Positions 8,123-31,739 of a stretch of DNA of 64,000 nucleotides are shown piece by piece. The translations under genes and the position numbers were made by a program. The notes below the pieces were generated by a model, which was given only the letters and a program-made list of their open reading frames with translations, had not been told where the DNA came from and did no database searches. Numbering within the stretch: the first letter of the stretch is position 1; every line of letters begins with the position of its first letter. The stretch spans positions 124,001 to 188,000 of the forward strand of contig NZ_FOFD01000005.1 in NCBI RefSeq assembly GCF_900110865.1, written 5' to 3'. The DNA comes from Natrinema salaciae (GTDB lineage: Archaea; Halobacteriota; Halobacteria; Halobacteriales; Natrialbaceae).

Positions 8123-8899
8123 TTAATCGAGTGCGTACCGCATCCGGAGCTCGAGTTCGTTCGTCGCTTCCATTACCATTTCGGCGTACGTGGTGTGGAC
8201 TCGGTCCTGCGTGAAGTGGTCGGCCGGGCCGGTGATACTGATGGCGCCGATCTGGTCCGTTTCCGGACTTTCGATGGCGGCGGCGACCGATTGAATGGCG
8301 TCGATCCGCTCCCCGACACTCGTCGCGTACCCCTGTTCGCGCACCGTTTCGATGTCCTCCCAGAGTTCGTCGGGCTCCGTGATCGTGTTGTTCGTTTCGC
8401 TCGGGAGTCCCGTTTCCGCGATGATCCCGTCGATCGTTTCGTCCGGGAGGGTCGCCAAGATGGCCTTTCCCGCCGCGTTCTGGTGGATCACGTATCGATT
8501 CCCGAGCGGCACCGGTTTCCGCAGTCCGTACCGGTCGTTTTCGATGAATACGAAGACGCCGTGGGTCCCGTCCCGAAGAATGAACGAGACCATCTGATCG
8601 CTCTCTTCGGCCAGTTCGTCGATCGCCGAGCGGACGGATCGACAGAACTTATCGCGGTCGCGGATGTGGCCCCCGAGGGTCAGTAGCTTGAGCCCGAGCC
8701 CGTACCGTCCGTCGTTGTTGACGACGTAGCCGTGTTTCTCGAGGGTTTTCAGGTGCTTGTGGATCGCGCTCTTGGACATGTCGAGCGTCGTCGCCAGTTC
8801 CGTGACGCCGACTTCCTCCGACCGGTGTATCTCTTCGATGATAGCGAACACCGTCTGGTCCGATTTCACATACCCCGTCGACTCGGATTCGGACTCCAT
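8123..8899 (-). CDS. IclR-family transcriptional regulator (first)
   Basis: A 258-aa regulator. The N-terminal winged helix-turn-helix (about residues 10-70: VTELATTLDMSKSAIHKHL, then KHGYVVNNDGRYGLG) is followed by the IclR effector domain with the typical HQNAAGKAILATLP segment. IclR proteins bind operators as dimers or tetramers and sense small organic acids. ATG at 8897-8899 is chosen because a TATA-like GATTAAT lies about 25-31 nt upstream. The Met 18 nt further up would be too close to that box. It is the nearest regulator to the left part of the catabolic region, but its targets are unknown. Confidence 0.9.
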   Translation of the reverse strand: MESESESTGYVKSDQTVFAIIEEIHRSEEVGVTELATTLDMSKSAIHKHLKTLEKHGYVVNNDGRYGLGLKLLTLGGHIRDRDKFCRSVRSAIDELAEESDQMVSFILRDGTHGVFVFIENDRYGLRKPVPLGNRYVIHQNAAGKAILATLPDETIDGIIAETGLPSETNNTITEPDELWEDIETVREQGYATSVGERIDAIQSVAAAIESPETDQIGAISITGPADHFTQDRVHTTYAEMVMEATNELELRMRYALD

Positions 8900-9213
8900 A
8901 CAACGTGGTAACGTCATCCCTGGTGATTAATCATTTGCACCGTTGAACGACGTTTTCGAGTGACAGCAGTTCCGTCGGTCGAATTCGAGTGCGTTCTCTC
9001 TGGGAGAACAGCCCCTCCAACGTTTCCCGAGAGAGAACGCCTGCTGAGGTGACGATGGTGGTTCGACGGCCTTCAGGGTGGCTCTTGCGTCGCCCTATCG
9101 ATCAGCCGCTCGAGTACGGTTTCCGCGTGATCAGTCGCTCGAGTACGGTCTTCGAGCGCGGGTCGGAAATCGATGGCCCCCCGATGGACCCAGAACGATG
9201 GCCCCCGATGGAC
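8900..9213. other. Intergenic region with hairpin and direct repeats
   Basis: GCGTTCTCTC (8991-9000) and GAGAGAACGC (9031-9040) form a perfect 10-bp stem that extends to about 15 bp with one bulge. It lies downstream of the SDR gene and may end its transcript. A roughly 25-bp imperfect tandem repeat starting CGATGGCCCC is at about 9171-9219 and reaches into the SDR stop codon. CGCTCGAGTACGGT occurs twice at about 9107-9150. No gene is seen. Confidence 0.5.
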
Positions 9214-11611: not shown

Positions 11612-11618
11612 TTTATGG
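11612..11618 (+). promoter_or_regulatory. TATA box of the thiolase-like gene
   Basis: TTTATGG is 27-33 nt upstream of ATG 11645. This supports that start over the upstream in-frame ATG at 11615 and predicts a leaderless mRNA. Confidence 0.6.
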
Positions 11619-11632
11619 CCTGTTATCGCATG

Positions 11633-11648
11633 CCATGCTACATCATGG
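11633..11648. promoter_or_regulatory. 16-bp palindrome over the thiolase start codon
   Basis: CCATGCTACATCATGG has 5-bp arms (CCATG/CATGG) and contains the ATG of the thiolase-like gene. A near-identical palindrome with the same spacing (24202-24217) covers the start codon of the FAD-linked oxidase gene. Both lie just downstream of a TTTATG TATA box, a position suited to repression. Confidence 0.5.
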
Positions 11649-12814
11649 CTAAAGCCATCGCACCGACCGTCGCAGGTATCGGTACCGTTCCGAACGGGAC
11701 GCACTCGGCACCGGAACGAGATCTCGCACTGACAGTCGTTCGAGACGCCCTCGCGGACGCGGCGTTCGAGCTGTCCGCCGTCGACGGGCTCTACATGCCC
11801 GCCCCCCGCCCGTGGACGCCGCAGGGGTTCTTTTCGACCTATCTGCTGCACTTGCTCGGGCTCGACGTGAACCGCTCGCTCGAGGTCTCGACCGGGGGGA
11901 CGAGCGGCGGACACGCGTTTCACGCCGCCGTCTCGGACGTCCGGGACGGAACGGTCGAGACGGCGCTCGTCCTGGCGGTGGAGCGAAACTCGATCGTCGA
12001 CACGACGGGGCCGTACTTCGACTACATTCTCAAGTCGTTCGACGCGGAGTTCGAGTCGCCGATCGGAATGACCGTTCCGGCGGCGTACGCGCAGAGCATG
12101 CAGCGGTACGTCCACGAGTACGCCGTCGATCGCGAGGACCTCGCCGAAGTCGTCGTCAAAAACCGCGAAAACGGCGCCGCGAATCCGGACGGACTCTTCG
12201 ACGAGAGCCCGACCCGGGAAGACGTACTCGACGCTCGCCCGATCGCCGACCCGATCCGCCTGTTCGACTGTCCGGCTCCGTGTGACGGCGCGGCCGCGAT
12301 ACTCCTCACTCGAGACGACCCCGCGTCATCGGCGTCGTCACGGCCGATATCGGTCGGTGGAACCGGATACCACCACGCACCGAGTCACTTCCTGATGAGC
12401 CGGGAGACGCCGATCACGGAACTCCCGGCCGTCGGCTGCGCCGTGAACGTGGCGACCGATCTCGCCGACGTCTCGGTCGCCGATATCGACGTCTTCGAAC
12501 CGTACGCGCCGTTTCCCCACATCGAGGCGATCGTCACGGAGGAGCTGGGCCTCGCCGAGCGCGGTGGCGGCGTCGACGCCTGCCTCGAGGGTCGAACGGC
12601 GCCGGATGGCCCGGTTCCGGTCAGTCCATCCGGCGGCTGTCTCGGACGGGGACATCCGCCGATGGTGACGCCGCTTCTCAACTACGTCGAGGCGGTGAAA
12701 CAGCTTCGCGGGACGGCCTCGACCCAGATTCCGGACGCGGAGCGTGTCCTCACGACCGCGGAACATGGCCACGTCAACGGTGTAACCGCGACCGTGTTCA
12801 CGACGGAGGTGTGA
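11645..12814 (+). CDS. Thiolase-like acyltransferase (lipid-transfer-protein type)
   Basis: A 389-aa thiolase-fold protein. The region where thiolases carry the nucleophilic Cys reads LEVSTGGTSGGHAFHAAV and has no Cys. The later active-site loop is kept as SGGCLGRGHPPMVTP, with the GHP His. This pattern is known in SCP-x/lipid-transfer-like thiolase homologues that work with a DUF35 partner, some of which are retro-aldolases on acyl-CoA (for example Ltp2 with a DUF35 subunit). The DUF35 gene follows after 3 nt, so a two-subunit enzyme is likely. The chemistry could be thiolysis or retro-aldol cleavage; the substrate is unknown. Confidence 0.85.
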   Translation: MAKAIAPTVAGIGTVPNGTHSAPERDLALTVVRDALADAAFELSAVDGLYMPAPRPWTPQGFFSTYLLHLLGLDVNRSLEVSTGGTSGGHAFHAAVSDVRDGTVETALVLAVERNSIVDTTGPYFDYILKSFDAEFESPIGMTVPAAYAQSMQRYVHEYAVDREDLAEVVVKNRENGAANPDGLFDESPTREDVLDARPIADPIRLFDCPAPCDGAAAILLTRDDPASSASSRPISVGGTGYHHAPSHFLMSRETPITELPAVGCAVNVATDLADVSVADIDVFEPYAPFPHIEAIVTEELGLAERGGGVDACLEGRTAPDGPVPVSPSGGCLGRGHPPMVTPLLNYVEAVKQLRGTASTQIPDAERVLTTAEHGHVNGVTATVFTTEV

Positions 12815-12817
12815 TCG

Positions 12818-13213
12818 ATGGAGCCCTACACGCAACCGTTCTGGGAGTCCCTCCGGGACGGCACGGTCCTGGTTCACGCCTGCGAGAGCTGCGACGAGCG
12901 GTTTTTCCCGCCGAGTCCGATCTGTCCGCACTGTCACTCGACCGCCGTCGACTGGTCGGAGACGACGGGGCGCGGGACGCTCTTCTCGTTTACGCGGACC
13001 CACGCAACGGCGGCGGCGTTCGACGACGACCTCGTCGTGGGCACCGTCGAACTGGACGCCGGGCCGAAACTGCTCGCGCCGATCGACGAACCGTACGCGG
13101 CCCTCGAGATCGGCGACCGCGTCGTCATCGACGCCGTCGAGTACGACGCCGACTACGATCGCGGCTGGCTCGAGGGGTACCCGTTCTTCGCGGCGCGGAC
13201 GCTCGAGGACTGA
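12818..13213 (+). CDS. DUF35 zinc-ribbon/OB-fold partner protein
   Basis: A 131-aa protein with an N-terminal rubredoxin-like zinc ribbon, CESC then CPHC (about residues 22-25 and 36-39), and a C-terminal OB fold (GTLFSFTRTH ... LEIGDRVVIDAVEYD). DUF35 proteins bind acyl-CoA and form complexes with thiolase-like partners. It starts 3 nt after the thiolase stop codon and is probably translated from the same mRNA. Confidence 0.9.
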   Translation: MEPYTQPFWESLRDGTVLVHACESCDERFFPPSPICPHCHSTAVDWSETTGRGTLFSFTRTHATAAAFDDDLVVGTVELDAGPKLLAPIDEPYAALEIGDRVVIDAVEYDADYDRGWLEGYPFFAARTLED

Positions 13214-13359
13214 TCGCGCGGGTCCCGTCTCGAGATCGGTGCGCGTCGACCGAACTGACGGTGGTGGCGGTCGTTGCGAGGAGAGGCCGGGGACGGTGCG
13301 CTCGACGAAGACTGCGGTGGCTCTCGGTCGGCGAAACCCGCTGAAAAAGACGATCGTCG

Positions 13360-15366
13360 CTAGTCTTCGACGGCGTTGATGGAGTCCGTCGCCGATCGCT
13401 GGCTCACCCGTTCGCGGATCGGTTTCTGGAGTTGGACCCCCATCAGAACGAAGATGACTGCGACGCAGCCGAGACGGATCGTCGTGTCCGGATAGACCAT
13501 CGCGAGGACGCCGAGGACGAAGAAGACGGCCCTGATTGGGTATTCGACGAACAGACTCTCGTGGTAGAACGACCCGTAGTAGTTGAGGCCGTGAGAGATT
13601 CCCAGTGCGCCGGCCAGTGCGATCAGGCCGGAGAAGAACGTCTCGACGCCGAAGCCACCGACCACGAGCTCGGGATTGTAGATGAACGCGAACGGCAGGA
13701 CGTAGATCGGTGCGGAGATCTTCAGCGCCTCGTGGGCCGTCCGCCAGAAGTTGCTCTCGGCGATCCCCGTCGCGACGACGACGGCGATCGCGATCGGGGG
13801 CGTCAGTCCGGAGAGAATCGCGGCGTACAGCACGAAGAAGTGCGCCGCGAGGTCGGGGACGAAGAACTGCTGGATCAGCGCCGGCGCGATCAGCGCGGCG
13901 ACGATGACGTACGCGGCGACCGTCGGCATTCCCATGCCCAGGACGATCGAGATGACCATCGCCAGGATGACCGCAGTCAACATGACCCCGCCGGAGAGGT
14001 CGAGCAGGGCCAGCGAGAGAATTCCCGGAATGCCCGACGCGGTGAAGACGTCGACGACGCCGTTGATGGCGGCGATGATGATCGCGATCGGTGCGAGGAT
14101 CATCGCGCCTTCTCTGAAGCCAGTCGCCGCATCGCCGAGGAGACTGACGAACTCGGCCGGGAGATCGCCGCCTTCCGTCGCCGTCTGGACCAGCGGGAAC
14201 CCGAAACCGGTGACGAACATCGCGACGATGGTGTACAGCGCGGCCGTGAGCACCGTGTACTGGAGGATGCCGAGGACGTAGATCAGGAGGGCGAACGGAA
14301 TGCCGAACCGGAGACACTGGATAACGAACTCCTTCTGGGACATCTGCTCCTCGAACTGGCTCTCGACGTCGATCTTGGTCGTCTGATCGCGGAGCTGTCC
14401 GATGCCCTTGTAGTGGACGGCGAAGGTGACGGACCCGTAGAAGATCATGGCGGGAATGATACCCGCGATGATCACGTCGACGTACGTGATCCCGAGCAGC
14501 GACGCCATGACGAACGCAGCCGCGCCCATGATCGGAGGCATGATCTGCCCGCCGGTCGAGGCGACGGATTCGATCCCGCCCGCGGTCTCGCCTTTCATCC
14601 CCGTCTCCTTCATCAACGGGATCGTGAACGAACCGGTGATCGCCGTATTCGCCGCCTGGCTGCCGGTGATCGAGCCGATGATGATGCTCGAGGTCACCGC
14701 GGAGAGGGCGACGCCCGACCGGACGTAGTTGGCCGACCGGAGTCCGATCCGCATGATGAGGTCGAACGCTCCAAAGCCGCGCATGAGCCCCGCGTACAGC
14801 AGGAACAGGGCGACCCACGTTGCGATAATTCTGGATATCGAACCGTAGACCCCCTGGAAGTCGAGCACCATGATGCTCATCATGCGGTTGACGCTGAACC
14901 CGGCGTGGCGCAGGATACCCGGGACGTAGTTCCCGTAGAGCCCGTACAGTATCACGCCGACGATCACGGCCAGGAACGACAGCCCGTAGGCCCGGTACGA
15001 CAGGTACAGGATCACCAGGAAGAACGCGGCGGCTATCACGTACTCGCGCGGCAGCGCCGTTCCGACGCGGACCCGCAACAGCTCGTTGTAGAACGTGATC
15101 ATGTACGCCGTCGTGACGGCGGTGATAATTGCCGAGAGGGAGAGCCCGACTAACCCCAGTTTATCCCCGTCCTCGTACGCTTCGATGAGTTCGTTTCCGA
15201 GATAGACGAGCATAATCGACCCGAGAAACGTGATCGTGAAGAGAATCCGCTGAATCCCCTGGGTGAACGCGTAGTACAGAATCCAGGTCCAGGCGAGGAT
15301 CGCTGCTGCCGTAACTGCGTCGTTGGCGATCTCTAATCTGTTTTTATCGGCTGTTGAATAAACCAT
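13360..15366 (-). CDS. TRAP transporter fused permease (4TM/12TM, TAXI type)
   Basis: A 668-aa polytopic protein that combines the small (DctQ-like) and large (DctM-like) TRAP subunits, as usual for TAXI-type systems. The DctM part contains SITGSQAANTAITGSFTIP, a VASTGGQIMPPIMGAAAF stretch and GMGMPTVAAYVI. Together with the binding protein encoded 27 nt upstream it imports an organic anion or amino-acid-like solute using an ion gradient. The start codon lies in a CCATATATGG palindrome (15363-15372). It shares an operon with the solute-binding subunit. Confidence 0.93.
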   Translation of the reverse strand: MVYSTADKNRLEIANDAVTAAAILAWTWILYYAFTQGIQRILFTITFLGSIMLVYLGNELIEAYEDGDKLGLVGLSLSAIITAVTTAYMITFYNELLRVRVGTALPREYVIAAAFFLVILYLSYRAYGLSFLAVIVGVILYGLYGNYVPGILRHAGFSVNRMMSIMVLDFQGVYGSISRIIATWVALFLLYAGLMRGFGAFDLIMRIGLRSANYVRSGVALSAVTSSIIIGSITGSQAANTAITGSFTIPLMKETGMKGETAGGIESVASTGGQIMPPIMGAAAFVMASLLGITYVDVIIAGIIPAMIFYGSVTFAVHYKGIGQLRDQTTKIDVESQFEEQMSQKEFVIQCLRFGIPFALLIYVLGILQYTVLTAALYTIVAMFVTGFGFPLVQTATEGGDLPAEFVSLLGDAATGFREGAMILAPIAIIIAAINGVVDVFTASGIPGILSLALLDLSGGVMLTAVILAMVISIVLGMGMPTVAAYVIVAALIAPALIQQFFVPDLAAHFFVLYAAILSGLTPPIAIAVVVATGIAESNFWRTAHEALKISAPIYVLPFAFIYNPELVVGGFGVETFFSGLIALAGALGISHGLNYYGSFYHESLFVEYPIRAVFFVLGVLAMVYPDTTIRLGCVAVIFVLMGVQLQKPIRERVSQRSATDSINAVED

Positions 15367-15393
15367 ATATGGCGGTGACGGGTTGAACGAGTG

Positions 15394-16446
15394 TTATTCG
15401 TCGCCGCGAGTCCAGCTGTCGTCCCAGACGTCGTTCTCTTCGTACCAGTCCGCGGCACCCGGGTGAATCGGGATCTCGTCCGTGTGCGTCAACGCGAACG
15501 TGAAGTTCGACGGATCGGACCAGTCGAGGATGGTCGGATTCGCTTCCTGCATCGACTCGTAGTTGTTGTGGCAGATCTCCATCAGGTCGTAGATGGCGTC
15601 CGCCGGGACGTCCGGGCTGAAGTAGTACGGATAGGTCTCCGTCCACGTGTGCTTCGGGAAGTTACCGCCCTGCACGTCCTGCTCCCAGCCGCCGATCTCG
15701 TCGACCTCTTCGTACCCCGCGCCGGCGAAGTCCTGTGCCGCTTGCACGTAGTCGTCGGTCATCTCGATCGCCCTGACGGAAACCCGCGAGTCGATCTCCG
15801 CCGCCCACGAGGGGAGCTGGGTGTAGTTCGAAGTGTACACGATGAACGCCTCGACCCGCCCTTCCTCGAGTGCGCTGGCGGCTTGGGTCGTCTCGACGTT
15901 GACGACGTTCTCCGAGAGCCCTTGCCAGAGGCCGGCGTTACCGTACATCTCCTCCGTCATCGCGCGCAGTCCCCAGCTGGCGGGGAGCGCGTAGACGTCC
16001 CTGCCCGCGAGGTCGTCGGTCGTCTGGATGTCGCTGTCCTCGAGGGCCATCCAGTAGAGGTTGAGCGAGAGGTGACCGAACCCTAACTGCGGGAAATCGG
16101 AGACGGGATCGTCTTCGAACGGCCCCGTCTCGGTCAGCGCCTGATTCATGATGTAGTTCCCCGCAGAGTACGAGTTGATCTCACCGTCCGCGTACAGGCG
16201 GATCGACTGCGGGTCACCGCCCGCGTCCTGCGTAATGAAATTGAGGTAATCGGACTGCTGACTGACTACCCGTTGAATCGCCTGCGAGTTCCCGTACGTG
16301 GACGATCCCGAGGAGGACGAGCCGACAGTCAGGTCGACCTGGTCCCCACCGCCCCCACCGCCGAGACAACCCGCGAGCGATAATGCCCCGATTCCAGCCG
16401 TACCCTTTAGTACGCCCCTGCGTGTCTGCCTACCATTCTCAAACAT
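15394..16446 (-). CDS. TAXI-family TRAP solute-binding lipoprotein
   Basis: A 350-aa secreted binding protein. The N terminus has a twin-arginine motif (QTRRGVLKG) followed by GALSLAGC, a lipobox whose Cys would anchor the protein after Tat export. A Gly-rich linker and the TAXI domain follow (VGSSSSGSSTYGNSQAIQRVV, then ADGEINSYSAGNY). It delivers substrate to the fused permease encoded just downstream. TTTAAA at 16473-16478 is 27-32 nt upstream of the ATG and marks the operon promoter. Confidence 0.93.
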   Translation of the reverse strand: MFENGRQTRRGVLKGTAGIGALSLAGCLGGGGGGDQVDLTVGSSSSGSSTYGNSQAIQRVVSQQSDYLNFITQDAGGDPQSIRLYADGEINSYSAGNYIMNQALTETGPFEDDPVSDFPQLGFGHLSLNLYWMALEDSDIQTTDDLAGRDVYALPASWGLRAMTEEMYGNAGLWQGLSENVVNVETTQAASALEEGRVEAFIVYTSNYTQLPSWAAEIDSRVSVRAIEMTDDYVQAAQDFAGAGYEEVDEIGGWEQDVQGGNFPKHTWTETYPYYFSPDVPADAIYDLMEICHNNYESMQEANPTILDWSDPSNFTFALTHTDEIPIHPGAADWYEENDVWDDSWTRGDE

Positions 16447-16764
16447 CGTTATACATGATACGGGGATCTCTATTTAAATCTTTTGTAGGTTTTCACTGCC
16501 ATTCCGGCTATCGCCGGACTTGAGGCGGAAATGTGACTACAACTGATGTAATTTGTTGAACGCTGTTGCGAGTATTTCTCGATCATATGTATGATAGACA
16601 AGAGACGACCGAATCCGATAGCTGCGTGCATATAAACGATGGCGCTTCGGACCGATGTGTCGACGGTAGCTCTTTTGTGTTCCAGGCAATACTTATCACT
16701 ATCACATGAACCGCACCTCGAGCGTGACAGTCACGCGGCGACACCCACGGAGCGCCCCGGACCG
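16447..16764. other. Divergent promoter region between TRAP operon and M20 peptidase
   Basis: It holds the TATA box of the TRAP operon at 16473-16478 (minus strand) and a TATA-like ATACTTATC at about 16689-16697 for the peptidase gene, whose leader would be about 50 nt. The middle (about 16490-16640) is AT-richer than the flanks and shows no gene. Confidence 0.5.
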
Positions 16765-18159
16765 ATGACGACGATAGAGCCGACCGCGTACCTCGAGCGC
16801 CGAGACGGGACGTTCCTCGACGACCTCCGATCGCTGCTCGCCCAGCCGTCGATCAGCGCGACCGGCGAGGGGATCGACGACTGCGCGACGATGGTCCGGC
16901 AGTCGTGTCTCGAGTACGGGTTCGACGAGGCGGAGCTCGTCGAGACGCCGGGCCGTCCGGCCGTCGTCGCTCGCGCGTCCGCCGACGGCGAGTCGACCGA
17001 GACCGGACCGACGGTACTGCTCTACGGCCACTACGACGTCCAGCCGGCGACGGCTTCGGAGTGGCAGTCACCGCCGTTCGACCCGACCGTCCGCGAGGGG
17101 CCCGACGGCGAACAGCGTCTCTACGCGCGCGGGGCCGGCGACAACAAGGGGCAGTGGTTCGCCCACCTCTGTGCGGTTTGCGCGCTGCGCGAGACGACGG
17201 GGCTCCCGACCGACGTGACCCTGGTGATCGAAGGCGAGGAGGAGAGCGGCAGCGAACACCTCGAGTGGCTCGTCCGCGAGCATCGCGAGGACCTCGGCGC
17301 GGACGTCGCGATCGTGGCCGACGGGTCGATCGACGCGTCGGGCAGACCGCACGTGCTGCTCGGTTCGCGGGGGTTGCTCTACGTCGACATCGAGGCGACG
17401 GGAGCGAACCGCGACCTCCATTCGGGGAACTTCGGCGGCCCGGTTCCCAATCCGGCCACCGCGATCGTCGACCTCGTCGCCTCGCTCCGGGACGAGGACG
17501 GCCGGATCGCGCTCGAGGGCTTTCACGACGACGTCCGTCCGCTGACCGATCGCGACCGCGAGGTACTCGAGGCGATCCCGCTCGACGAGGAGGCGGTGAA
17601 AGCCGACCTCGGCCTGTCGGCGCTCGCGACGGACGCGGACGAGGGATACACCGAGCGGCTGCTCTGTCGGCCGAACCTGAACGTCGCCGGACTCGACGCG
17701 GGCTACGACGGAGACGGGATGAAAACGGTGTTGCCGTCACGCGCTCGAGCGAAGATCGACTTCAGGCTGGTCGCCGATCAGGATCCCGACGACGTCTTCG
17801 ACTCGCTGTCCCGCCACGTCGAGGAGCGGATACCGGCCGGAATCGAGGTCGACCTCTCGCGGGTGGCGGCGATGGCTCCCCAGCGGACGCCGGCGGACAG
17901 TCCAGTCGTCGAGCCGGTACTGCGAGCCGTCGGCGAGGGCTGGAACCGTGAGCCGATTCTCAAACTCTCGCTCGGCGGTTCGGTCCCGACGTACGTCTTC
18001 GCCGACACCCTCGACGTCCCCTGCCTGGTCGTCCCCTACGCCAACGCCGACGAGAACAATCACGCACCCGACGAGAACATTTCCCTCTCCTGTTTCCGGG
18101 CGGGTGCCCGGACCACCGTCGCGATTCTCGAGGCCCTGTCCGAATCGATCCTCGACTGA
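16765..18159 (+). CDS. M20-family dipeptidase/deacylase (ArgE/DapE type)
   Basis: A 464-aa metallopeptidase of the ArgE/DapE/carboxypeptidase G2 superfamily. LLYGHYDVQP carries the first metal His and Asp, RGAGDNKGQ the bridging Asp, and IEGEEESGSEHLEW the catalytic and metal Glu. The central lid domain begins near DLHSGNFGGPVPNPA. It likely removes an amino acid or acyl group from a short peptide or N-acyl amino acid. ATG 16765 is used because the longer frame adds a low-complexity, TATA-containing leader. It is co-oriented with the gamma-glutamyltransferase-like gene 252 nt downstream. Confidence 0.92.
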   Translation: MTTIEPTAYLERRDGTFLDDLRSLLAQPSISATGEGIDDCATMVRQSCLEYGFDEAELVETPGRPAVVARASADGESTETGPTVLLYGHYDVQPATASEWQSPPFDPTVREGPDGEQRLYARGAGDNKGQWFAHLCAVCALRETTGLPTDVTLVIEGEEESGSEHLEWLVREHREDLGADVAIVADGSIDASGRPHVLLGSRGLLYVDIEATGANRDLHSGNFGGPVPNPATAIVDLVASLRDEDGRIALEGFHDDVRPLTDRDREVLEAIPLDEEAVKADLGLSALATDADEGYTERLLCRPNLNVAGLDAGYDGDGMKTVLPSRARAKIDFRLVADQDPDDVFDSLSRHVEERIPAGIEVDLSRVAAMAPQRTPADSPVVEPVLRAVGEGWNREPILKLSLGGSVPTYVFADTLDVPCLVVPYANADENNHAPDENISLSCFRAGARTTVAILEALSESILD

Positions 18160-18410
18160 GTCGAACGGCGGGGTCTCTCCGCTCGAGCGATCGTCGACGA
18201 CGGTCGCTCCCTCCTGCGCGAGCGTTGGACGCGGACGCCGTTCCGAGTCCGCTGCTCGATACCGCGAGGAGGGTTCCGTCACCGTCCAGCAGCGTCCCCG
18301 CCGAGATTCGGTATCGTACCACGCGGCCATTCCTGCCGCGGCCAGGCCTCCGAGTCGACGGTTTGGGTGGGTATACCAATCCTTTAGTCGAGACCCGACA
18401 ATCGGTACCT

Positions 18411-20036
18411 ATGCAGGGGACGCCAGACCTAGATACGTTCACGTCACGCCGATCGACCGTATACGCCACGCGCGGCGTCGTCTCGACGAGCCAGCCGCTC
18501 GCCGCGGAGGCGGGAGTCGCAGCGCTCCGGGACGGCGGTAACGCGTTCGACGCGGCCGTCGCGACCGCCGCGGCACTGAACGTGGTCGAGCCGACGTCGA
18601 CCGGCCTCGGCGGCGACGTCTTCGCGCTCTACAAGACCGCCGACGGCGAGGTCGGCGCGCTTCGGAGCTGCGGTGGCGCGCCGGCGGACGCGTCGCTCGA
18701 GGCCGTCCGCGATCGAGTCGCCGAGGAGGAGGACGTCGATCCCGACGACGCGGCGATGCCCGAGTACGGCCCCCTCACGGTGACCGTCCCCGGAACCGCC
18801 CGCGGCTGGGAGCGCACCGTCGAGGAACTGGGCGAACTGAGTCTCGCCCGAGCGCTCGAGCCGGCGATCGAGTACGCGACGGAGGGCTTTCCCGTCTCGG
18901 AGATCATCGCCGACCAGTGGGCACAGGCGGCCGCCGTCCTCCGCGGGGACAACGCTCGATCGGCGTACCTCCCCGGCGGGCGCGCGCCGGCCGTCGGCGA
19001 GCGCGTGCGACTCTCCTCGCTGGGCGAAACCATGCAACGCATCGCCGACGAGGGCGCTGACGTCGTCTACGAGGGCGATATCGCGGACGAAATCGTCGAG
19101 GAGGTCCGGTCGCGCGGGGGCTTCCTCTCGCACGACGACCTCGCCGGCTTCGAGCCCGAGTTCGTCGACCCCGTCAGCACGACCTACAGCGGTGCCGAGA
19201 TCTACGAACTCCCGCCGAACAATCAGGGCCCCGTCGCGCTCGAGGCGCTCAACATCGCCGAAGCGCTCGAGGCGGGCGAGCACCCGCCCGATTCGCCCGA
19301 ACGGCTCCACCTCGCCGCCGAGGCGGCGAAGCGAGCCCTGACCGACGGCCTCCACCACGTCACCGATCCCGCGTTCGAGGACGTCCCCGAGATCGCGTCG
19401 AAACCGTACGCGGCCGACCGCGCCGCCGAGATCGGCTCGGAAGCGACGAGCGACGTCGACGTCGGCTTCCCGAACGACCGCGCGGAGGATGCCGATACCG
19501 TGTTGCTGTCGGTCGCCGACGAGGCGGGGAACGTCGTCTCGTACATCAACTCCCGGTTCAAGGACTTCGGCAGCGGCGTCGTCGCCGGCGACACCGGGAT
19601 CGCCCTCCAGAACCGGGGGAGTTCGTTCTCGCTCGACCCCGAGCATCCGAACCGCTTCGAGCCCGGGAAGCGGCCGTTCCACACGCTGATTCCCGGTATC
19701 GTGCGCTTCGACGAGGACGATTGGGCCGCCTTCGGCGTCATGGGCGGCTACATGCAGCCCCAGGGGCACCTCCAGGTGCTGCTGAACCTCCTCGACGACG
19801 GGATGTCGATCCAGGAGGCCCTGGATTTCCCGCGCTGGCGCTACCAGGTGGACGGACAGCTGGCCGTCGAGGGGCGGTTCGACGGTGAGGTGCTGACGAA
19901 ACTCGCCCGGCGCGGCCACGAGGTCCGCGTGATGCCACCGCTGCACTTCGGCGGCGGCCAGATCGCCCGCAACGCGGACGGCGTCCTCTCGGGGGGGACG
20001 GACCCGCGAAAGGACGGCGCGGCGATCGGATTCTAA
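18411..20036 (+). CDS. Gamma-glutamyltransferase-family Ntn-hydrolase
   Basis: A 541-aa protein that would self-cleave into large and small subunits. The nucleophile is probably the Thr in EDADTVLLSVADEAGNVVS (about residue 361), followed by the usual INSRFKDFGSGVV and MGGYMQPQGHLQVLLN. The N-terminal half has the GGNAFDAAVATAAALNVVEP stretch of the family. There is no export signal, so it probably acts in the cytoplasm on gamma-glutamyl compounds or related amides; cephalosporin-acylase-like activity is an alternative. A TATA-like CCTTTAGT lies about 30 nt before the ATG. It may act with the preceding peptidase. Confidence 0.88.
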   Translation: MQGTPDLDTFTSRRSTVYATRGVVSTSQPLAAEAGVAALRDGGNAFDAAVATAAALNVVEPTSTGLGGDVFALYKTADGEVGALRSCGGAPADASLEAVRDRVAEEEDVDPDDAAMPEYGPLTVTVPGTARGWERTVEELGELSLARALEPAIEYATEGFPVSEIIADQWAQAAAVLRGDNARSAYLPGGRAPAVGERVRLSSLGETMQRIADEGADVVYEGDIADEIVEEVRSRGGFLSHDDLAGFEPEFVDPVSTTYSGAEIYELPPNNQGPVALEALNIAEALEAGEHPPDSPERLHLAAEAAKRALTDGLHHVTDPAFEDVPEIASKPYAADRAAEIGSEATSDVDVGFPNDRAEDADTVLLSVADEAGNVVSYINSRFKDFGSGVVAGDTGIALQNRGSSFSLDPEHPNRFEPGKRPFHTLIPGIVRFDEDDWAAFGVMGGYMQPQGHLQVLLNLLDDGMSIQEALDFPRWRYQVDGQLAVEGRFDGEVLTKLARRGHEVRVMPPLHFGGGQIARNADGVLSGGTDPRKDGAAIGF

Positions 20037-20136
20037 CCTCCGCGAGCCCTGCGTTCCCTCGGCCGGTAGCCGCGACGCCCTCGGATACCCGCGCGGCGTA
20101 AACTATATCCGCCCCGCCGGGACACGTTTCGTGAGC

Positions 20137-21318
20137 ATGCAACCATTAGCGGGCATTACCGTGATCGATGCGACCCAGGCGCTCGTCGGCCCGTTCGCGG
20201 GCCAGACGCTCGGCGACCTCGGGGCGGACGTGATCAAGATCGAACGCCCGGGCCACGGCGACCTCACGCGGACGTACTCGCCGCAGTACGGCGAGGAGCT
20301 CTCCGCGTACTTCGTCAGCACGAACCGGAACAAGCGCAGCGTCAGTCTGGACCTCACGACGGCGGCGGGGCAAGCGATCCTCCGCGACCTGGTCGAAGCG
20401 GCCGACGTCTTCATCCAGAACTTCTCGCCCGGTAACGAGGAGGTCTTCGGTGCGGAGTACGAGACCTTCTCGGAGATCAACGACGAACTGGTCTACTGCG
20501 ACATCTCCGGCTACGGGCCGGACAGCCCCTACGCCGACCGGAAGTCGTTCGATATCATCCTCCAGGGCGAATCGGGGATGATGAGCGTCACCGGAACCGA
20601 GGACCAGCCCGCCCGGATCGGCGTCTCGATCTGTGACCTGGCGGGTGCGATGACGGCCATCTACTCGATCGTCACGGCGCTGTACCACCGCGAGCGAACC
20701 GGCGAGGGCGAGTACATCGACGTCTCGCTGCTGGACGCCAGCTTCCAGTTCCTCGGCTACCACGTCTCGAACTACTTCGCGACCGGCGAGAACCCGACGC
20801 GAATGGGGACCCGCCATCCGAGCCTCATGCCCTATCAGGCGTTCGAGACGGCCGACTCCCACATCGTCGTCGGCGTCGTGAGCGAACACATCTGGCCGAA
20901 GCTCTGTCGCGCGCTCGACCGCGAGGAGTGGATCGACGACGAGCGGTACGCGACGTTCTCCGACCGCGTCGAGAACAGGGACGAACTCGATCCCGTCCTC
21001 GACGAGATGTTCGCCGAGCGGACGACCGACGAGTGGATGGATATCCTGCAGGCCGAGGACGTTCCCTGTACGCCCGTTCAGGACGTCGAAACGCTGGTCG
21101 ACGACCCGCACATCGAAACGCGCGGGATGATCGCCGAGATGGAACACCCGGAGCTCGGGACGTTCAAGTCTCCGGCCAACCCGGTCAATTTCGCCTCGCT
21201 CGAGACCGACGCCGAGGGCCCGCCGCCTCGCCTCGGCGAACACACCGACGAGGTGCTGTCGGAACTCGGGTACGACGACGACGAGCGCGAACGGCTCCGG
21301 TCGAACGACGTCATCTAA
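20137..21318 (+). CDS. CaiB/BaiF (class III) CoA-transferase, first
   Basis: A 393-aa class III CoA-transferase that moves CoA between carboxylic acids. The N-terminal ALVGPFAGQTLGDLGADVIKIE is typical. The catalytic Asp is in the KSFDIILQGESGMM segment (about residue 140). A GTG at 20131 is an alternative start; a TATA-like ACTATATCC at 20101-20109 fits a leaderless mRNA from either codon. It follows the peptidase and GGT-like genes and precedes the hydroxyacyl-CoA dehydrogenase/BKACE pair, so it may activate a substrate for that pathway. Confidence 0.92.
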   Translation: MQPLAGITVIDATQALVGPFAGQTLGDLGADVIKIERPGHGDLTRTYSPQYGEELSAYFVSTNRNKRSVSLDLTTAAGQAILRDLVEAADVFIQNFSPGNEEVFGAEYETFSEINDELVYCDISGYGPDSPYADRKSFDIILQGESGMMSVTGTEDQPARIGVSICDLAGAMTAIYSIVTALYHRERTGEGEYIDVSLLDASFQFLGYHVSNYFATGENPTRMGTRHPSLMPYQAFETADSHIVVGVVSEHIWPKLCRALDREEWIDDERYATFSDRVENRDELDPVLDEMFAERTTDEWMDILQAEDVPCTPVQDVETLVDDPHIETRGMIAEMEHPELGTFKSPANPVNFASLETDAEGPPPRLGEHTDEVLSELGYDDDERERLRSNDVI

Positions 21319-21366
21319 CGTCGGTCCGCGACCGCCCGCGGTGAGCAGGACTCACCACTCGAGCGG

Positions 21367-21804
21367 TTAGACGATCGTGACGGGCTGTGTGGCGTTGAGA
21401 ATTACGTCCTGGGTGACGCTTCCGAACACCGCCTTTCCGACCGGCGAGCGCTTCCGGCCGGGAATGACGATGGTGTCGGCGCCGATCGACCCGGCGTGTT
21501 CGACGATCTCTTCGCCGGGGTCGCCGTGGCGGCGTTCGACGTCGACCGCCACGCCGGCCGCGGCGAGCCGATCGCGAGCGGCCGCGACCGAGTCGGGGAT
21601 CTCGTCTTCGTCGTAGAGGTCCTCGGACTGGACGTTTCCTCCGTCGTCGATCGCCTGGAACTCCTTGAATACGTTCACTATCGACACCGCGATGTCGTCG
21701 AGATCGGCGTCGAGACCGGCCTCGTCGCCGAGACCCGTCACGAAATCCGCCGCATTCGTCGCTCGCGTCTCGTCCTCGTCGATCGGAACAACGATCTGGT
21801 ACAT
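21367..21804 (-). CDS. Universal stress protein (UspA family)
   Basis: A 145-aa single-domain Usp protein. It starts MYQIVVPIDEDE. The ATP-binding signature is ADTIVIPGRKRSPVGKAVFGSVTQ (the G-2x-G-9x-G-S/T pattern is recognisable), and it ends with the typical QPVTIV strand. Usp proteins bind ATP or other adenine nucleotides as dimers; the exact role here is unknown. It lies convergently between a CoA-transferase and the hydroxyacyl-CoA dehydrogenase. Confidence 0.92.
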   Translation of the reverse strand: MYQIVVPIDEDETRATNAADFVTGLGDEAGLDADLDDIAVSIVNVFKEFQAIDDGGNVQSEDLYDEDEIPDSVAAARDRLAAAGVAVDVERRHGDPGEEIVEHAGSIGADTIVIPGRKRSPVGKAVFGSVTQDVILNATQPVTIV

Positions 21805-21911
21805 GGACTCCTGCTAGGGTTCGCAGTCCAGCTACATAGTCGTATTCGAGAGCGTGGCGAGTTCTGACGATCGGCCGCTTCCGTTACGGCCCCTTTATGT
21901 CAGATGTGAGA

Positions 21912-22940
21912 CTACGATTCCGGTTCGTCGGACGAGTCGCGCGAGTCGGGGTTGTCGGGCGCGTCGGGCGGACCGCGCGCGGCTCGATACACCTCGAGCT
22001 GGTCGAGGAGCCGCTGATCGCGTTCGGCCGTCAGCCGTTCGCTATCGGTCTCCGACCAGTCGTAGACGCCCCGTTCGGCTTTCACCCCGTGGCGGCCCTC
22101 GTCGACGAGTTCGGTCAGCACCGCCGCCGGCGACGTCCCCCGGTCGATCTCGCCCAGCAACTCGGAGAGCACCTTGTGGTGCACGTCGAGCCCGGAGTGA
22201 TCGCCCTTCTCGAGCACGCCGAGGGTCGGCAGCCGAAAGCCGAACGTCCCCTTCACCGCGCGATCGATGTCCTCGGCGCTCGCGACGCCCGACTCGAGCA
22301 GTGCCCACGCCTCGTGAGCCATCGCCGACTGGATTCGATTGGCGATGAACCCCGGGATGTCCCGCTCGACGACGACGGGGTCCTTGCCGATGGACTCGAG
22401 GAACGCCGCGGCGGTGTCGACCGTCTCGTCCGCAGTTCGGTCGCCGTAGACGACCTCCACGACGGGGACGATGTGCGCCGGGTGGAACCAGTGCGTGCCG
22501 CAGAAACGCTCGGGTCGAGAGAGCGACGACGCAAGTTCGGTGATCGACAGCGAGGAGGTGTTCGTCGCCAGCGTCGCGGACGCCGACGCGTGGCGTTCGA
22601 TCTCCTCGTAGACGGCCGCCTTCGTCTCGCGGTCCTCGGTCACCGCCTCGATGATCAGCGGCGCGTCCCCGACGGCCGCCGCCAGATCGGTCGTGTACGC
22701 GACGCGGTCGCGAACGTCGTCGGCGTCGGTCACGTCCGCGACGCCGCGGTCGGTGAGCGTTCCGACGGTCGATCCGATCTCCGATTCCGCGTCCCGTACC
22801 GCGTCCTCGTCGATGTCGAACAGGGTGACGGGCTGGCCGCCGACCGCGCTGGCGACGGCGATGTTGCGTCCCATCGTCCCGGCACCGACGATCGCGGGGC
22901 GAGGCGCTGCCTCCCGAGTATCCGACGGCTGGTCGGCCAT
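21912..22940 (-). CDS. 3-hydroxyacyl-CoA dehydrogenase-family oxidoreductase
   Basis: A 342-aa NAD-dependent beta-hydroxy-acid dehydrogenase. The Rossmann motif is AIVGAGTMGRNIA (about residues 16-28). The NAD-domain end carries NTSSLSITELA, then GTHWFHPAHIVPVVEVV with the catalytic His (HWFHP). The C-terminal domain starts near DIPGFIANRIQ. The family also holds carnitine 3-dehydrogenase and L-gulonate dehydrogenase, and HWFHPAHIVP departs from the usual HFFNP of fatty-acid enzymes. It diverges from the BKACE gene across 61 nt, which suggests oxidation of a 3-hydroxy acid to a beta-keto acid for that enzyme. Confidence 0.88.
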   Translation of the reverse strand: MADQPSDTREAAPRPAIVGAGTMGRNIAVASAVGGQPVTLFDIDEDAVRDAESEIGSTVGTLTDRGVADVTDADDVRDRVAYTTDLAAAVGDAPLIIEAVTEDRETKAAVYEEIERHASASATLATNTSSLSITELASSLSRPERFCGTHWFHPAHIVPVVEVVYGDRTADETVDTAAAFLESIGKDPVVVERDIPGFIANRIQSAMAHEAWALLESGVASAEDIDRAVKGTFGFRLPTLGVLEKGDHSGLDVHHKVLSELLGEIDRGTSPAAVLTELVDEGRHGVKAERGVYDWSETDSERLTAERDQRLLDQLEVYRAARGPPDAPDNPDSRDSSDEPES

Positions 22941-23001
22941 GGTCGACCCTCTCGGGGACGTCCAATAACACTTTCGTGGTGGCCGGTCTGGAATGCGGTA
23001 G

Positions 23002-23847
23002 ATGAGCTACCAGAACTACCTCGAGGGCGGGAAGCTGATCCTGACCGTCCCGACGACGGGGGGCGTACAGGGGAAGGAGGCGAACCCGAACCTGCCCGAA
23101 CAGCCAGACGAAATCGCCGAGGCGGCCCGCGAGTGCGAGAAGCTCGGCGCGGCCATCGTCCACCTTCACGGACGGAACGAACGCGGCGAGCGCGACGCGG
23201 ATCGCTTACAGGAGATCAACGACGCCGTCCGTGACCGCTGCGACGACGTCATCGTCCAGAACACGACCGGTGGGACGGGGATTCCGCTCGAGCAGCGGGC
23301 GACGGGCATCCGGACCGATCCGCTCCCCGACATGGCGTCGCTCGACATGGGGCCGATGAACCGGTACCAGCACATCACGTCGGAGAACACCCGCCACATG
23401 ATCGACACGCTGGCGGCGGAGATGCAGGAGAAGGGAATCAAACCGGAGATGGAGGTGTTCAACAACGGCCACCTGAACGAGGTCTACCGCCTCATCGACG
23501 AGGGCCTGCTCGACGAGCCGTACTACATCAACCTCATCTTCGGCCCGGGGACGCTCACACCGCCGACGCCGGAGAACATGGTCAACATGGTGAACAACCT
23601 CCCGGAGAACTCGATCTTCAACGTGCTCGCGATCGGACCGCACCAGCTCCCGCTGACGACGATGGGAATCGTGATGGGCGGCCACGTCCGGATCGGCATG
23701 GAGGACAACCTCTACTACCGCCGCGGCGAACCCGCCGAGAGCAACGCGCAACTCGTCGAGCGAACGGTGCGCATCGCCGACGAACTCGACCGCGATCTCG
23801 CGACGCCCGCGGATGCCCGGGAACTGCTCGGAATTCCGACTCGCTAA
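23002..23847 (+). CDS. BKACE-family beta-keto acid cleavage enzyme (DUF849)
   Basis: A 281-aa TIM-barrel enzyme. LTVPTTGG starts the barrel, IVHLHGRNERGE carries the zinc ligands His-x-His and the substrate-side Arg, EVFNNGH contributes the Glu, and GHVRIGMEDNLYY is the C-terminal signature. BKACE enzymes condense a beta-keto acid with acetyl-CoA and release acetoacetate plus a new acyl-CoA; known substrates include 3-keto-5-aminohexanoate and dehydrocarnitine. The divergent hydroxyacid dehydrogenase could supply the keto acid. The family is certain, the substrate is not. Confidence 0.93.
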   Translation: MSYQNYLEGGKLILTVPTTGGVQGKEANPNLPEQPDEIAEAARECEKLGAAIVHLHGRNERGERDADRLQEINDAVRDRCDDVIVQNTTGGTGIPLEQRATGIRTDPLPDMASLDMGPMNRYQHITSENTRHMIDTLAAEMQEKGIKPEMEVFNNGHLNEVYRLIDEGLLDEPYYINLIFGPGTLTPPTPENMVNMVNNLPENSIFNVLAIGPHQLPLTTMGIVMGGHVRIGMEDNLYYRRGEPAESNAQLVERTVRIADELDRDLATPADARELLGIPTR

Positions 23848-23941
23848 TCGGGGACTTCCGTTCGGTAATCGCGGATTCCGGCTCGACGACCGGCGTACCC
23901 GCGCGGCCTCGCGGATCGGGACCGCCGATCGGCGTACCCGC

Positions 23942-24124
23942 TCACTCCGATTCTGCCTCGCGGTAGAACTCGCAGTCGCGTTCGTGGGTCAACTCGTGGC
24001 GGTCGTTGCAGACGTCCGCGCGCATCGGCGAGACGAACGCCTCGACGACGCCGCAGTAGGCGCGCTCGGTATCGAACTCGAGGTCTCCGTCTGACCGACG
24101 GTACGAGAGGTACGGACAGGTCAT
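23942..24124 (-). CDS. Small Cys-rich conserved haloarchaeal protein
   Basis: A 60-aa protein, MTCPYLSYRRSDGDLEFD..., with cysteines near residues 3, 24, 39 and 51 and a C-terminal acidic tail. The pattern CPYL.YR....E.....YC.VVEAFVSPMRADVCNDR looks familiar as a widespread haloarchaeal small protein of unknown function. The four Cys could bind zinc or an iron-sulfur cluster. It is divergent from the FAD-linked oxidase gene. Confidence 0.75.
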   Translation of the reverse strand: MTCPYLSYRRSDGDLEFDTERAYCGVVEAFVSPMRADVCNDRHELTHERDCEFYREAESE

Positions 24125-24201
24125 GTCTCCTTCCAGACGCCCGATCTACGAATAGCTACTGGTGGAATGCGGACCGGAGAGTGTTTATGCCGGGTCGCGT
24201 A

Positions 24202-24217
24202 CCATGCGATATCATGG
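24202..24217. promoter_or_regulatory. 16-bp palindrome over the FAD-oxidase start codon
   Basis: CCATGCGATATCATGG has the same arms and spacing as the palindrome at 11633-11648 (14 of 16 bases identical). It contains the ATG of the oxidase gene and follows the TATA box TTTATG at 24184-24189. It is a candidate common operator. Confidence 0.5.
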
Positions 24218-25614
24218 AACGGTGCCCCGGCTCGAGTCACGAGTACGATTGCGCGTTTCTCGACGAGGCGATCACCGACGGACGCGTCGCACACGGAACG
24301 AGCGTCCGCGAACAGTACGCGTCCGACGAGAGCCCCCACGCCGGGCGACTGCCGGACGCCGTCGTCTGGCCGGCGTCGACCGACGAGGTCGCGGCGGTTC
24401 TCGCGGCGGCGAACGACCGCGGCGTGCCGGTCACGCCGCGGTCGGGCGGCTCGGGACTCGAGGGCAACGCCATCCCGACCGCCGGCGGCATCGTCCTCAG
24501 CACGGCCGAGATCGAACACGTCGAGGTGTCGCCGGACGACCTGCAGGCGACCGTCGGCGCAGGCGTCGTCTACGACGACCTGAACGAGCGGCTCGCGCCC
24601 TACGGGCTACGGTTCGCGCCCGGCATCTCGAGCGGCGACGTGGCGACGGTCGGCGGGATGGTGGCGACGAACGCGAGCGGCTTCAACGCGGTCCGCTACG
24701 GCGAGACGCGCGACCACGTCCGTCGTCTCGAGGTCGTCACCGCCGACGGGCGCGTGGTCGAGTGCGGCCGGGACGTCGTCAAGACGTCCGCGGGCTACAG
24801 CCTGAAAGACCTCTTCGTCGGGAGCGAGGGGACGCTGGGCGTCGTCACCGAGGTGACGCTGGGCCTGATCGGCATCCCCGAACACCGGCGGGCGGCGCTG
24901 GTGACGTTCCCCTCGCGCGTCGACGCCTCCGGGGCCGTTGCGGACGCGATCGGGTCGGCGCTGGTTCCCGGCGCGATCGAGTTCATCGACACGACGGCGG
25001 TGAAGATGTTGAACGCCTACCGCGACGACGTCTCGTTCGAGGAGCGGCCGACGCTGATCATCGAACTGCACGCGAACAACGGCGGAATCGAGGAGGACCT
25101 CGCGTTCGCGAAGGCGATCTGTGAGGACCACGGGATGCGCTCGTGGGAAGCGGCGGCCGAAGAGAACCTGGACGACATCTGGCAGGCGCGCCGCGACAAG
25201 TACCACGCGACGAAGGCGTACCGCGAGGACTGGGAGGTGGCGCTGGTCGGCGACGTCGTCGTGCCGATTTCGGCGTACCCCGAGATCGTCGACGAAGTCG
25301 CCCGGGCCAGCGAGGACCTCGACCTGATGACCTCCTGCGTCGGTCACGCCGGGGACGGGAACCTCCACTTCACGCCGCTCGTCGATCCCGACGACGAGGA
25401 GATGCTCGAGCGGGCCCACGAGCTGAACGAGCGCGTCGTCCGGACGGCGATCTCGCTCGGCGGGAGCGCGACCGGCGAACACGGCGTCGGCATCGGAAAG
25501 CGCCAGTTCATGGAGGGGGAACACGGGCCGGCGCTCGACCTCATGCGCTCGGTCAAGGAGACGTTCGACCCGAACGGGATTCTGAACCCCGGAAAGGTCC
25601 TCCCCGACTCCTGA
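24214..25614 (+). CDS. FAD-linked oxidase (GlcD/D-lactate dehydrogenase type)
   Basis: A 466-aa VAO-family flavoprotein. The FAD domain carries VVWPASTDEVAAVL, TPRSGGSGLEGNAIP (pyrophosphate loop) and VGGMVATNASGFNAVRYGETRD. The C-terminal domain has VGHAGDGNLHFTPL, with the metal-binding and active-site His, and GEHGVGIGKRQFM. This is typical of D-2-hydroxy-acid dehydrogenases such as glycolate oxidase GlcD and D-lactate dehydrogenase. ATG 24214 lies 25-30 nt after a TATA box, so the transcript is leaderless; GTG 24181 would lie before it. No FeS partner gene is adjacent. Confidence 0.93.
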   Translation: MERCPGSSHEYDCAFLDEAITDGRVAHGTSVREQYASDESPHAGRLPDAVVWPASTDEVAAVLAAANDRGVPVTPRSGGSGLEGNAIPTAGGIVLSTAEIEHVEVSPDDLQATVGAGVVYDDLNERLAPYGLRFAPGISSGDVATVGGMVATNASGFNAVRYGETRDHVRRLEVVTADGRVVECGRDVVKTSAGYSLKDLFVGSEGTLGVVTEVTLGLIGIPEHRRAALVTFPSRVDASGAVADAIGSALVPGAIEFIDTTAVKMLNAYRDDVSFEERPTLIIELHANNGGIEEDLAFAKAICEDHGMRSWEAAAEENLDDIWQARRDKYHATKAYREDWEVALVGDVVVPISAYPEIVDEVARASEDLDLMTSCVGHAGDGNLHFTPLVDPDDEEMLERAHELNERVVRTAISLGGSATGEHGVGIGKRQFMEGEHGPALDLMRSVKETFDPNGILNPGKVLPDS

Positions 25615-25772
25615 ACTGCGAATCGCTCCCGCTCGAGTCCGGGACCTCGAGCCACACTCTGTCGGCGTCTCGACCACCCACGGCCCGCGGTATCGCCGTC
25701 TCTCCGGGAACGGCCCGTCCCCGTTTCGCCAATACATTCATATAATGGCTTGGTAAAACGGGGCATGATAGC

Positions 25773-27005
25773 ATGTATTCGGACTTCGCAGCGCGGTTAG
25801 CCTCGAGTATCTGGCCCGACTTCGGTCGAACGCCGGCTCGCTCGACGGAGACGCCCGAGATCACCGGCCTGTCGACGGTCGTCGTCGACGGCAACTTCCC
25901 GTGGACGATCGTCCGCCTCGAGACGGACGCCGGCGTGACGGGAATCGGCGAATCGTACCCGTCGCCGGGCGTTCACGAGGTGATCACGGACTACTTCGAG
26001 CCCGTCCTCGTCGGCGAGAACCCGCTCGACGTCGAGCGGCTCTACCACCTCATGCGGGAGAGCCTCTCGGGCCGGGGCTCCCAGCAGGGGATCGGGACGA
26101 TCGCGATCAGCGGCATCGAACTCGCGCTCTGGGACGCCGCCGGCAAGATCCTGGAGCAGCCGGTCTACCAGCTTCTCGGCGGCAAGATGCGCGAGGCGGT
26201 GCGCATGTACGCGGACTGCCACGCCGGCGAGGGGATGGTCGAGTCGGCGCTCAACGAACAGCCCGAGGAGACCTACGAGGCGGCAGCTTACGCCCGCGCC
26301 GCCCGGGCGGCGGTCGACGACGGCTACGAGATCGTCAAGTTCGACCTCGACGTCCCCTCGGGTCGGGACGTCGACACGCTCGCGCGCCACTTCGACCGCC
26401 CGGAGATCGAGCACAAGCGCGGGTTGGTCGAGGCCGTGACCGACGAAGTCGGCGACGAGGCGGAGGTCGCCGTCGACCTCCACTGGAATTTCAGCGTCGA
26501 GGCGACCGAGAAGCTGTGTCGGGCGCTCGAGCCCTACGACCTCGCGTGGATCGAGGACCCGCTCCCGCCGGAGAACGCGGACGCGCTGGCCACGCTCAAC
26601 CGGAGCGTCGAGCAACCGCTGCTCACCGGGGAGAACCGTTACGGTCGCCACGGCTTTCGCGACCTCGTCGAGACGGAGGCCGTCTCCTTCGTCGCGCCCG
26701 ACGTGCCGAAGACCGGCGGCATCGCGGAGACGAAGAAGATCGCCGAACTGGCCGACACCTACTACCTGACGATGAGCCCCCACAACATCGGCAGCCCCGT
26801 CGCGACGATGGCCGGCGTCCACGTGGGGGCGACGGTCCCGAACTTTCTCGCGCTCGAGTTCCACGCCCGCGACGTGCCGTGGTGGGACGACCTCGTCGCC
26901 GACGACGACCCGCTCATTCAGGACGGGTACATCGAGGTCCCGGACCGGCCGGGTCTCGGTATCGAACTCGATTGGGACGTCGTCGAGGACCACCGGAAGG
27001 AGTAA
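25773..27005 (+). CDS. Enolase-superfamily (MR/MLE) dehydratase, first
   Basis: A 410-aa mandelate racemase/muconate-lactonizing-type enzyme. After the capping domain the barrel shows FDLDVPSGRD, metal ligands in VAVDLHWNF (Asp), WIEDPLPPEN (Glu) and LLTGENRYG (Glu), and a general-base His in TMSPHNIGSP. This fits sugar-acid dehydratases, for example galactonate-like, but the substrate is open. A TATA box CATATAATG at about 25739-25747 is 26-34 nt upstream of the ATG. It follows the FAD-linked oxidase gene and may belong to a hydroxy- or sugar-acid route. Confidence 0.9.
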   Translation: MYSDFAARLASSIWPDFGRTPARSTETPEITGLSTVVVDGNFPWTIVRLETDAGVTGIGESYPSPGVHEVITDYFEPVLVGENPLDVERLYHLMRESLSGRGSQQGIGTIAISGIELALWDAAGKILEQPVYQLLGGKMREAVRMYADCHAGEGMVESALNEQPEETYEAAAYARAARAAVDDGYEIVKFDLDVPSGRDVDTLARHFDRPEIEHKRGLVEAVTDEVGDEAEVAVDLHWNFSVEATEKLCRALEPYDLAWIEDPLPPENADALATLNRSVEQPLLTGENRYGRHGFRDLVETEAVSFVAPDVPKTGGIAETKKIAELADTYYLTMSPHNIGSPVATMAGVHVGATVPNFLALEFHARDVPWWDDLVADDDPLIQDGYIEVPDRPGLGIELDWDVVEDHRKE

Positions 27006-31678: not shown

Positions 31679-31739
31679 CCGGTTCGATCCGCCGCCCGGA
31701 GTATTGAACCTTATAACCCCGAAGTCAGTAGGCATTGTC

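Follow-up and report, generated by a model that had tools for sequence, protein, structure and literature searches.

A candidate regulatory box at the probably near-leaderless promoters of a catabolic gene cluster in the haloarchaeon Natrinema salaciae

Two genes of Natrinema salaciae, which encode a thiolase-like protein and an FAD-linked oxidase, have start codons that lie 12.6 kb apart under two closely similar copies of the palindrome CCATG-N6-CATGG. Does this sharing reflect the membership of the two genes in one regulon, and if so, what is the element that is shared and which protein would recognize it? In the present work, these questions are addressed for the stretch of 64,000 nucleotides that contains both genes (hereafter, the window), for related clusters in other genomes, and for the genome, genus and class to which the window belongs.

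Two similar leaders and their rarity

Both 16-mers (Table 1) have exactly the letters and positions originally reported for them and are identical in 14 of 16 bases, and homologue alignments confirm that each contains a start codon, viz. the thiolase ATG at 11645 and the FAD-oxidase ATG at 24214. Homologues of the thiolase align from residue 9–11 of its long ORF, with ATGs coinciding at 11645 in several orthologues, and the FAD-oxidase start coincides across eight orthologues. A TTTATG box precedes both sites, as was also predicted, at a similar but not identical distance, and the TTTAT of the FAD-oxidase promoter is kept in all nine aligned leaders. The likeness between the two leaders runs past the palindrome itself (TCGCRTRCCATGCKAYATCATGG). 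At all four of the promoters discussed below, a TATA-like box (TTTATG, ATATAA, or TTTAAATA) is located about 25–33 nt before the start codon. In Haloferax, 72% of the coding transcripts are leaderless and TTWT has been proposed as the TATA motif (PMC4983044); on this basis, the thiolase and FAD-oxidase promoters are probably near-leaderless, with the 16-mers spanning roughly −12 to +4.

Table 1. Coordinates of the genes and promoter features of the window that are considered in this work.
Feature	Coordinates	Strand	Remarks
IclR-family regulator (genuine IclR)	8123–8917	−	Originally proposed regulator; disfavoured
TTTATG, TATA-like box, thiolase promoter	11612–11617	+	33 nt before ATG
Site 1, CCATGCTACATCATGG	11633–11648	+	Over thiolase start codon
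Thiolase-like protein (Thiolase_C_1, Thiolase_N)	11645–12814	+	Start backed by homologues
ChsH2-type Zn-ribbon/OB-fold partner	12818–13213		After thiolase
Fused TRAP permease	13360–15366		After TAXI-family solute-binding gene
TAXI-family TRAP solute-binding protein	15394–16446	−	
TAXI/TRAP leader box, CCGTATCATGTAT	16451–16463	−	17 to 5 nt before ATG; 17.3 bits
TATA, TTTAAATA, TAXI/TRAP promoter	16471–16478		
TTTATG, TATA-like box, FAD-oxidase promoter	24184–24189	+	30 nt before ATG
Box 1 of FAD leader, GCGTACCATGCGA	24197–24209	+	Exactly 10 bp upstream of box 2; same offset from ATG as TAXI box
Site 2, CCATGCGATATCATGG	24202–24217	+	Over FAD-linked oxidase start codon
Box 2 of FAD leader, CGATATCATGGAA	24207–24219	+	−7 to +6; copy best kept in orthologues; 18.1 bits
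FAD-linked oxidase (FAD_binding_4, FAD-oxidase_C)	24214–25614	+	GlcD-like, below equivalog cutoff
ATATAA, TATA-like, MR/MLE-dehydratase promoter	25740–25745		
MR/MLE leader box, TGATAGCATGTAT	25766–25778	+	Over start codon 25773; 18.2 bits
Mandelate racemase/muconate lactonizing (MR/MLE)-family sugar-acid dehydratase	25773–27005	+	
Lrp/AsnC-family regulator	31740–32255	+	Long ORF 31551–32255; preferred candidate regulator

The pattern CCATG-N6-CATGG is found exactly twice in the 4.86-Mb genome, both times in the window and over start codons (0.01 matches expected in the window); the genome scan that was proposed for the motif thus revealed zero copies besides these two and no random scatter. 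The reversed control pattern has 3 copies in the same genome, and by our own count the motif is not enriched either across 29 Natrinema genomes (33 copies vs. 78 for the reversed control) or in 391 genomes of the class (22 vs. 20). The copies found in two further genomes (G092 and G203) are at unrelated loci, neither thiolase nor FAD oxidase, and were set aside. CATG-containing patterns in general are depleted in the window genome (29 vs. 124 for the reversed GTAC control, with one mismatch).

Palindromes with arms of at least 5 extend over the ATG at 16 of 506 candidate starts (~3%), and therefore a palindrome over an ATG is weak evidence alone; only the coincidence of two that are alike is unusual. 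Of 4,553 pairs of TATA-bearing leaders, drawn from 96 such candidate leaders in 464 kb of the window genome, the FAD-oxidase and thiolase leaders form the closest pair (27.8 bits, runner-up 22.3), and they share first place among 7,991 pairs when leaders are compared locally and free of offset. These observations bear on the alternative that survives best, viz. that the resemblance is a coincidence helped by start-codon context, given a shared TATA element and ATG, the self-complementarity of CATG, and post hoc selection. The ~3% frequency and the lack of enrichment in genome, genus, and class speak for coincidence, whereas the top rank of a pair whose members both fall within one cluster speaks against it.

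A shorter box at several cluster promoters

Orthologues of the FAD oxidase (85–89% identity) are present in other Natrinema genomes, Natronorubrum, Halalkalicoccus, and Halomarina. All five pairs of the palindrome are held in only three of nine closely related FAD-oxidase leaders (the window genome, G391, and G392); the outer pair of the other six is C:C, three of them having CCATGCGGTATCATGC, in which this outer pair is broken, and three having CCATACGGTACCATGC, in which two of the five pairs are broken with no compensation. No palindrome was found in thiolase orthologues at 80–86% identity (G143, G308, and G028), nor in the more distant ones examined. Judging from these alignments, the 16-bp palindrome is not the conserved unit, since most FAD leaders and all of the thiolase orthologues examined are without it.

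What is kept at the FAD-oxidase start is the sequence GRTAYCATG, which in the aligned leaders of other species is also found at the start of the next gene, encoding the MR/MLE dehydratase. A 13-nt box matrix was trained only on the FAD-oxidase and MR/MLE-dehydratase leaders of other species, with the window sites left out and the TAXI/TRAP leader likewise held out. Among 401 leaders of the window genome, this matrix places those of the MR/MLE dehydratase, the FAD oxidase, and the TAXI protein first, second, and third (scores in Table 1), with the next at 11.5 bits. On both strands of the background, which consists of 400 kb of sampled stretches of the window genome, one position reaches 14 bits, none reaches 16, and none equals the TAXI box. 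The FAD and MR/MLE boxes overlap the ATG and part of their match is forced; the TAXI box, at 17 to 5 nt ahead of its ATG, is hence not forced by the start codon. It is also above all background in G143, G308, and G391, where the matrix includes the three window-genome sites as well. A control in which 14 genes were compared all against all at every offset (3,276 tests) places 6 of the 7 strongest links among the MR/MLE, FAD, TAXI, and thiolase leaders. The shared element thus extends to promoters that the original prediction had left unnamed, viz. those of the TAXI/TRAP transporter and the MR/MLE dehydratase.

The reach of the box within the cluster is limited. A rank test of all cluster leaders against the background was not significant (P = 0.14), which means that some cluster promoters are without the box; the box-matrix scan found no match before the Lrp, SDR (9214), or BKACE genes. 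Matrices trained on the FAD or the MR leaders alone give weaker single links, with 11 and 1 background matches, respectively, equal to the TAXI box. When leaders of the window genome alone are compared pairwise, TAXI is not singled out with FAD or MR/MLE (ranks 187–376 of 7,991), and its link therefore needs the cross-species matrix. The pattern RTANCATGTAT has six copies across the window genome, two of them in the window and the other four without evident link.

In G392, an extra strong match (TGATATCATGTATCA, 19.3 bits) is located just upstream of a cluster SDR gene, with a weaker version in G391. Where this SDR gene has its ATG start in G391, the G392 gene has ATA (L058 5940–5958, −), and for this reason the G392 gene may start elsewhere or no longer be intact. 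A reverse-oriented, box-like sequence is present at the start (35090–35109, −) of a luciferase-like monooxygenase gene (34132–35109), reading TGATACCATGCC in G392 and weaker elsewhere; it is good only in G392 (13.2 bits) and was not counted.

The arrangement of the boxes accounts for the palindrome. The FAD leader has the box at −17 and −7, 10 bp apart (GCGTA-CCATG-CGATA-TCATG-GAACG), the TAXI leader has it at −17, and the MR/MLE leader has it at −7. As CATG is self-complementary, two boxes separated by 10 bp take on the appearance of a CCATG-N6-CATGG palindrome. In Halalkalicoccus and G408, the direct repeat GTACCATGC/GTATCATGC stands out more clearly than the palindrome does, and a direct repeat GTAYCATGC is most evident in the FAD leaders of G408, G116, and Halalkalicoccus. 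Palindromes built on CATG at start codons thus call for caution, as they can be disguised direct repeats. The thiolase leader is phased alike (GCATG-CCATG-CTACA-TCATG-GCTAA); it scores 4.4 bits against the box matrix, with 355 background positions equally good, and what links it is its direct resemblance to the FAD leader.

In our assessment, which is held with about even confidence, the two 16-mers are the form that a regulatory box takes in the window genome, the box being a feature of near-leaderless promoters within a single large catabolic cluster. Coincidence draws additional support from the thiolase, whose orthologues are without the palindrome and whose leader fails the box matrix, but the held-out TAXI match, which is unequalled in the background, speaks against it, and we assign it an appreciable though clearly minor probability. 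It is also conceivable, but unlikely, that in this strain one of the two promoters, that of the thiolase or that of the FAD oxidase, arose from the other by copying or conversion, such that the likeness would stem from recent shared descent and not from selection for an operator. Copying would explain why the likeness spans the whole stretch from TATA to ATG, with one 3-nt spacing difference, and why it is missing from thiolase orthologues at 80–86% identity; however, the likeness ends sharply on both sides, and the positions that differ within the stretch vary in the FAD orthologues too. The occurrence of the box at the start site of near-leaderless promoters could further suggest a general core-promoter or initiator feature of the leaderless genes of this organism. 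This is quite improbable, as the background is devoid of matches of at least 16 bits and CATG lies 5–7 nt before the ATG in 2 of 381 background genes vs. 5 of 29 cluster genes (one of these five being probably not a real start).

The catabolic cluster and its candidate regulators

Besides the TAXI/TRAP transporter, FAD oxidase, and MR/MLE dehydratase, the cluster encodes an M20 peptidase, gamma-glutamyltranspeptidase, CoA-transferases, 3-hydroxyacyl-CoA dehydrogenase, BKACE, aldehyde dehydrogenase, two aminotransferases, OCD/mu-crystallin, and others, and its gene content is largely kept in related genomes. The cluster (9214–42300) has a patchy distribution, with the FAD oxidase detected at an E-value of 1e-130 or better in 7 of 29 Natrinema genomes, and it is ~85% or more identical in Halomarina (on a plasmid) and Halalkalicoccus. 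This patchy presence, together with the high identity in these two, suggests a horizontally moving catabolic island. A homologue of RdfA (rod-determining factor A; 7004–7642, −) is encoded beside the cluster. Upstream of the FAD-oxidase promoter, the stretch GATCTACGAATAGCTACTGGTGG (24124–24184) is conserved from Natrinema to Halalkalicoccus more strongly than the palindrome and may function as a promoter for a divergently oriented gene. An unlisted divergent ORF at 23942–24124 (−) encodes 60 aa (MTCPYLSYRRSDGDLEFDTERAYCGVV...) with four cysteines; most of the orthologous regions in the alignment keep its start ATG, and its product is probably a small haloarchaeal protein that cutoffs for ORFs have caused to be overlooked.

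IclR proteins bind palindromes, and the genuine IclR gene within 3 kb of the thiolase was the regulator first put forward. It is a poor candidate, for gene and motif fail to co-occur across genomes: a close orthologue (84%) is found in Natrinema only in G143 and G308, where the FAD and thiolase leaders are both without the palindrome; it is absent from G391 and G392, the two in which the FAD-oxidase leader has the palindrome; and the FAD and MR/MLE boxes are kept without the IclR gene in G391, G392, and G395. An operator of the IclR family was also rejected on the grounds that the symmetry of the palindrome is not kept in orthologous promoters (3 of 9 FAD leaders), and we consider it highly improbable that the 16-mer is the operator of this protein.

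The Lrp/AsnC-family protein of the cluster fits better and is the most likely regulator that we infer for it. Its long ORF has an HTH_AsnC-type and an AsnC_trans_reg domain, and its start is likely at 31740, with a TATA-like box ~30 nt upstream. Homologues of at least 77% identity are encoded near the FAD gene in G143, G308, G391, G392, G395, and G408. An orthologue at this level is present in all eight of the family genomes with the box in the FAD leader and in none of eight genomes, including Natrinema G118, that have a related FAD oxidase (79–85% identical) and no box; this co-occurrence is confounded by phylogeny and is only suggestive. More distant Lrp homologues (54–57%) lie within a few kb of the FAD gene in G032, G163, and G338.

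With the Lrp/AsnC protein rather than IclR as the regulator, the proposed explanation of a cluster-specific box would work as follows. With GRTAYCATG(T/C/G)A placed between the TATA element and the start codon, a protein bound to it would block initiation, and from this we infer a repressor operator. Such operators would be present at the FAD oxidase (in two copies, which may be helically phased), the MR/MLE dehydratase, and the TAXI/TRAP transporter; the thiolase leader would be a diverged two-copy version, seen only in the window genome. The claim of one regulon is thus upheld in part: a shared promoter element is found in the cluster, but it is not the 16-bp palindrome, and thiolase membership is, by the orthologue comparison, the weakest link because the orthologues are without the palindrome. 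In this changed form, the transporter, oxidase, and dehydratase would belong to the putative regulon more securely than the thiolase.

Few haloarchaeal operators have been defined. Most transcripts of these organisms are leaderless, and the site of a repressor can extend over the start codon. If the proposed explanation is true, the box common to the transporter, oxidase, and dehydratase would constitute a testable regulon and would mark a substrate-responsive regulator. We tentatively go one step further and suggest an undescribed type of haloarchaeal operator, in which RTAYCATG boxes are phased by 10 bp with the start codon within the site, and through which an Lrp/AsnC protein encoded in the cluster might control the uptake and breakdown of a compound by a mobile catabolic island. 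Our literature search found no paper on this cluster or motif.

Comparison with known systems

The core promoter of haloarchaeal leaderless genes (TTWT TATA, BRE, and −10 WW; PMC4983044) resembles all of the promoters described here in having a TATA-like box ~30 nt before the ATG; the extra box, however, is cluster-specific and outside this general promoter. XacR of Haloferax volcanii, an IclR-family protein that controls pentose catabolism (cited in PMC10448506), is similar in being a cluster-linked regulator of a catabolic pathway of sugar-acid type; XacR is needed for activation, whereas the IclR gene of the window does not co-occur with the motif. A likeness is also seen to LrpA1 of Halobacterium salinarum, a haloarchaeal Lrp-family regulator encoded beside an aminotransferase gene, which has its repeat around the TATA element (PMC2894021). 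LrpA1 binds an inverted repeat at −31/−25 and −12/−6 of a leaderless promoter, and mutation of this repeat abolished binding (PMC2894021). The candidate box differs from it in sequence and reach, being located at −17 to +6, and LrpA1 combines autoregulation with control of aspB3, in contrast to the several catabolic promoters here (PMC2894021). Because the LrpA1 site overlaps a leaderless promoter, the mechanism that we propose for the cluster has a precedent (PMC2894021).
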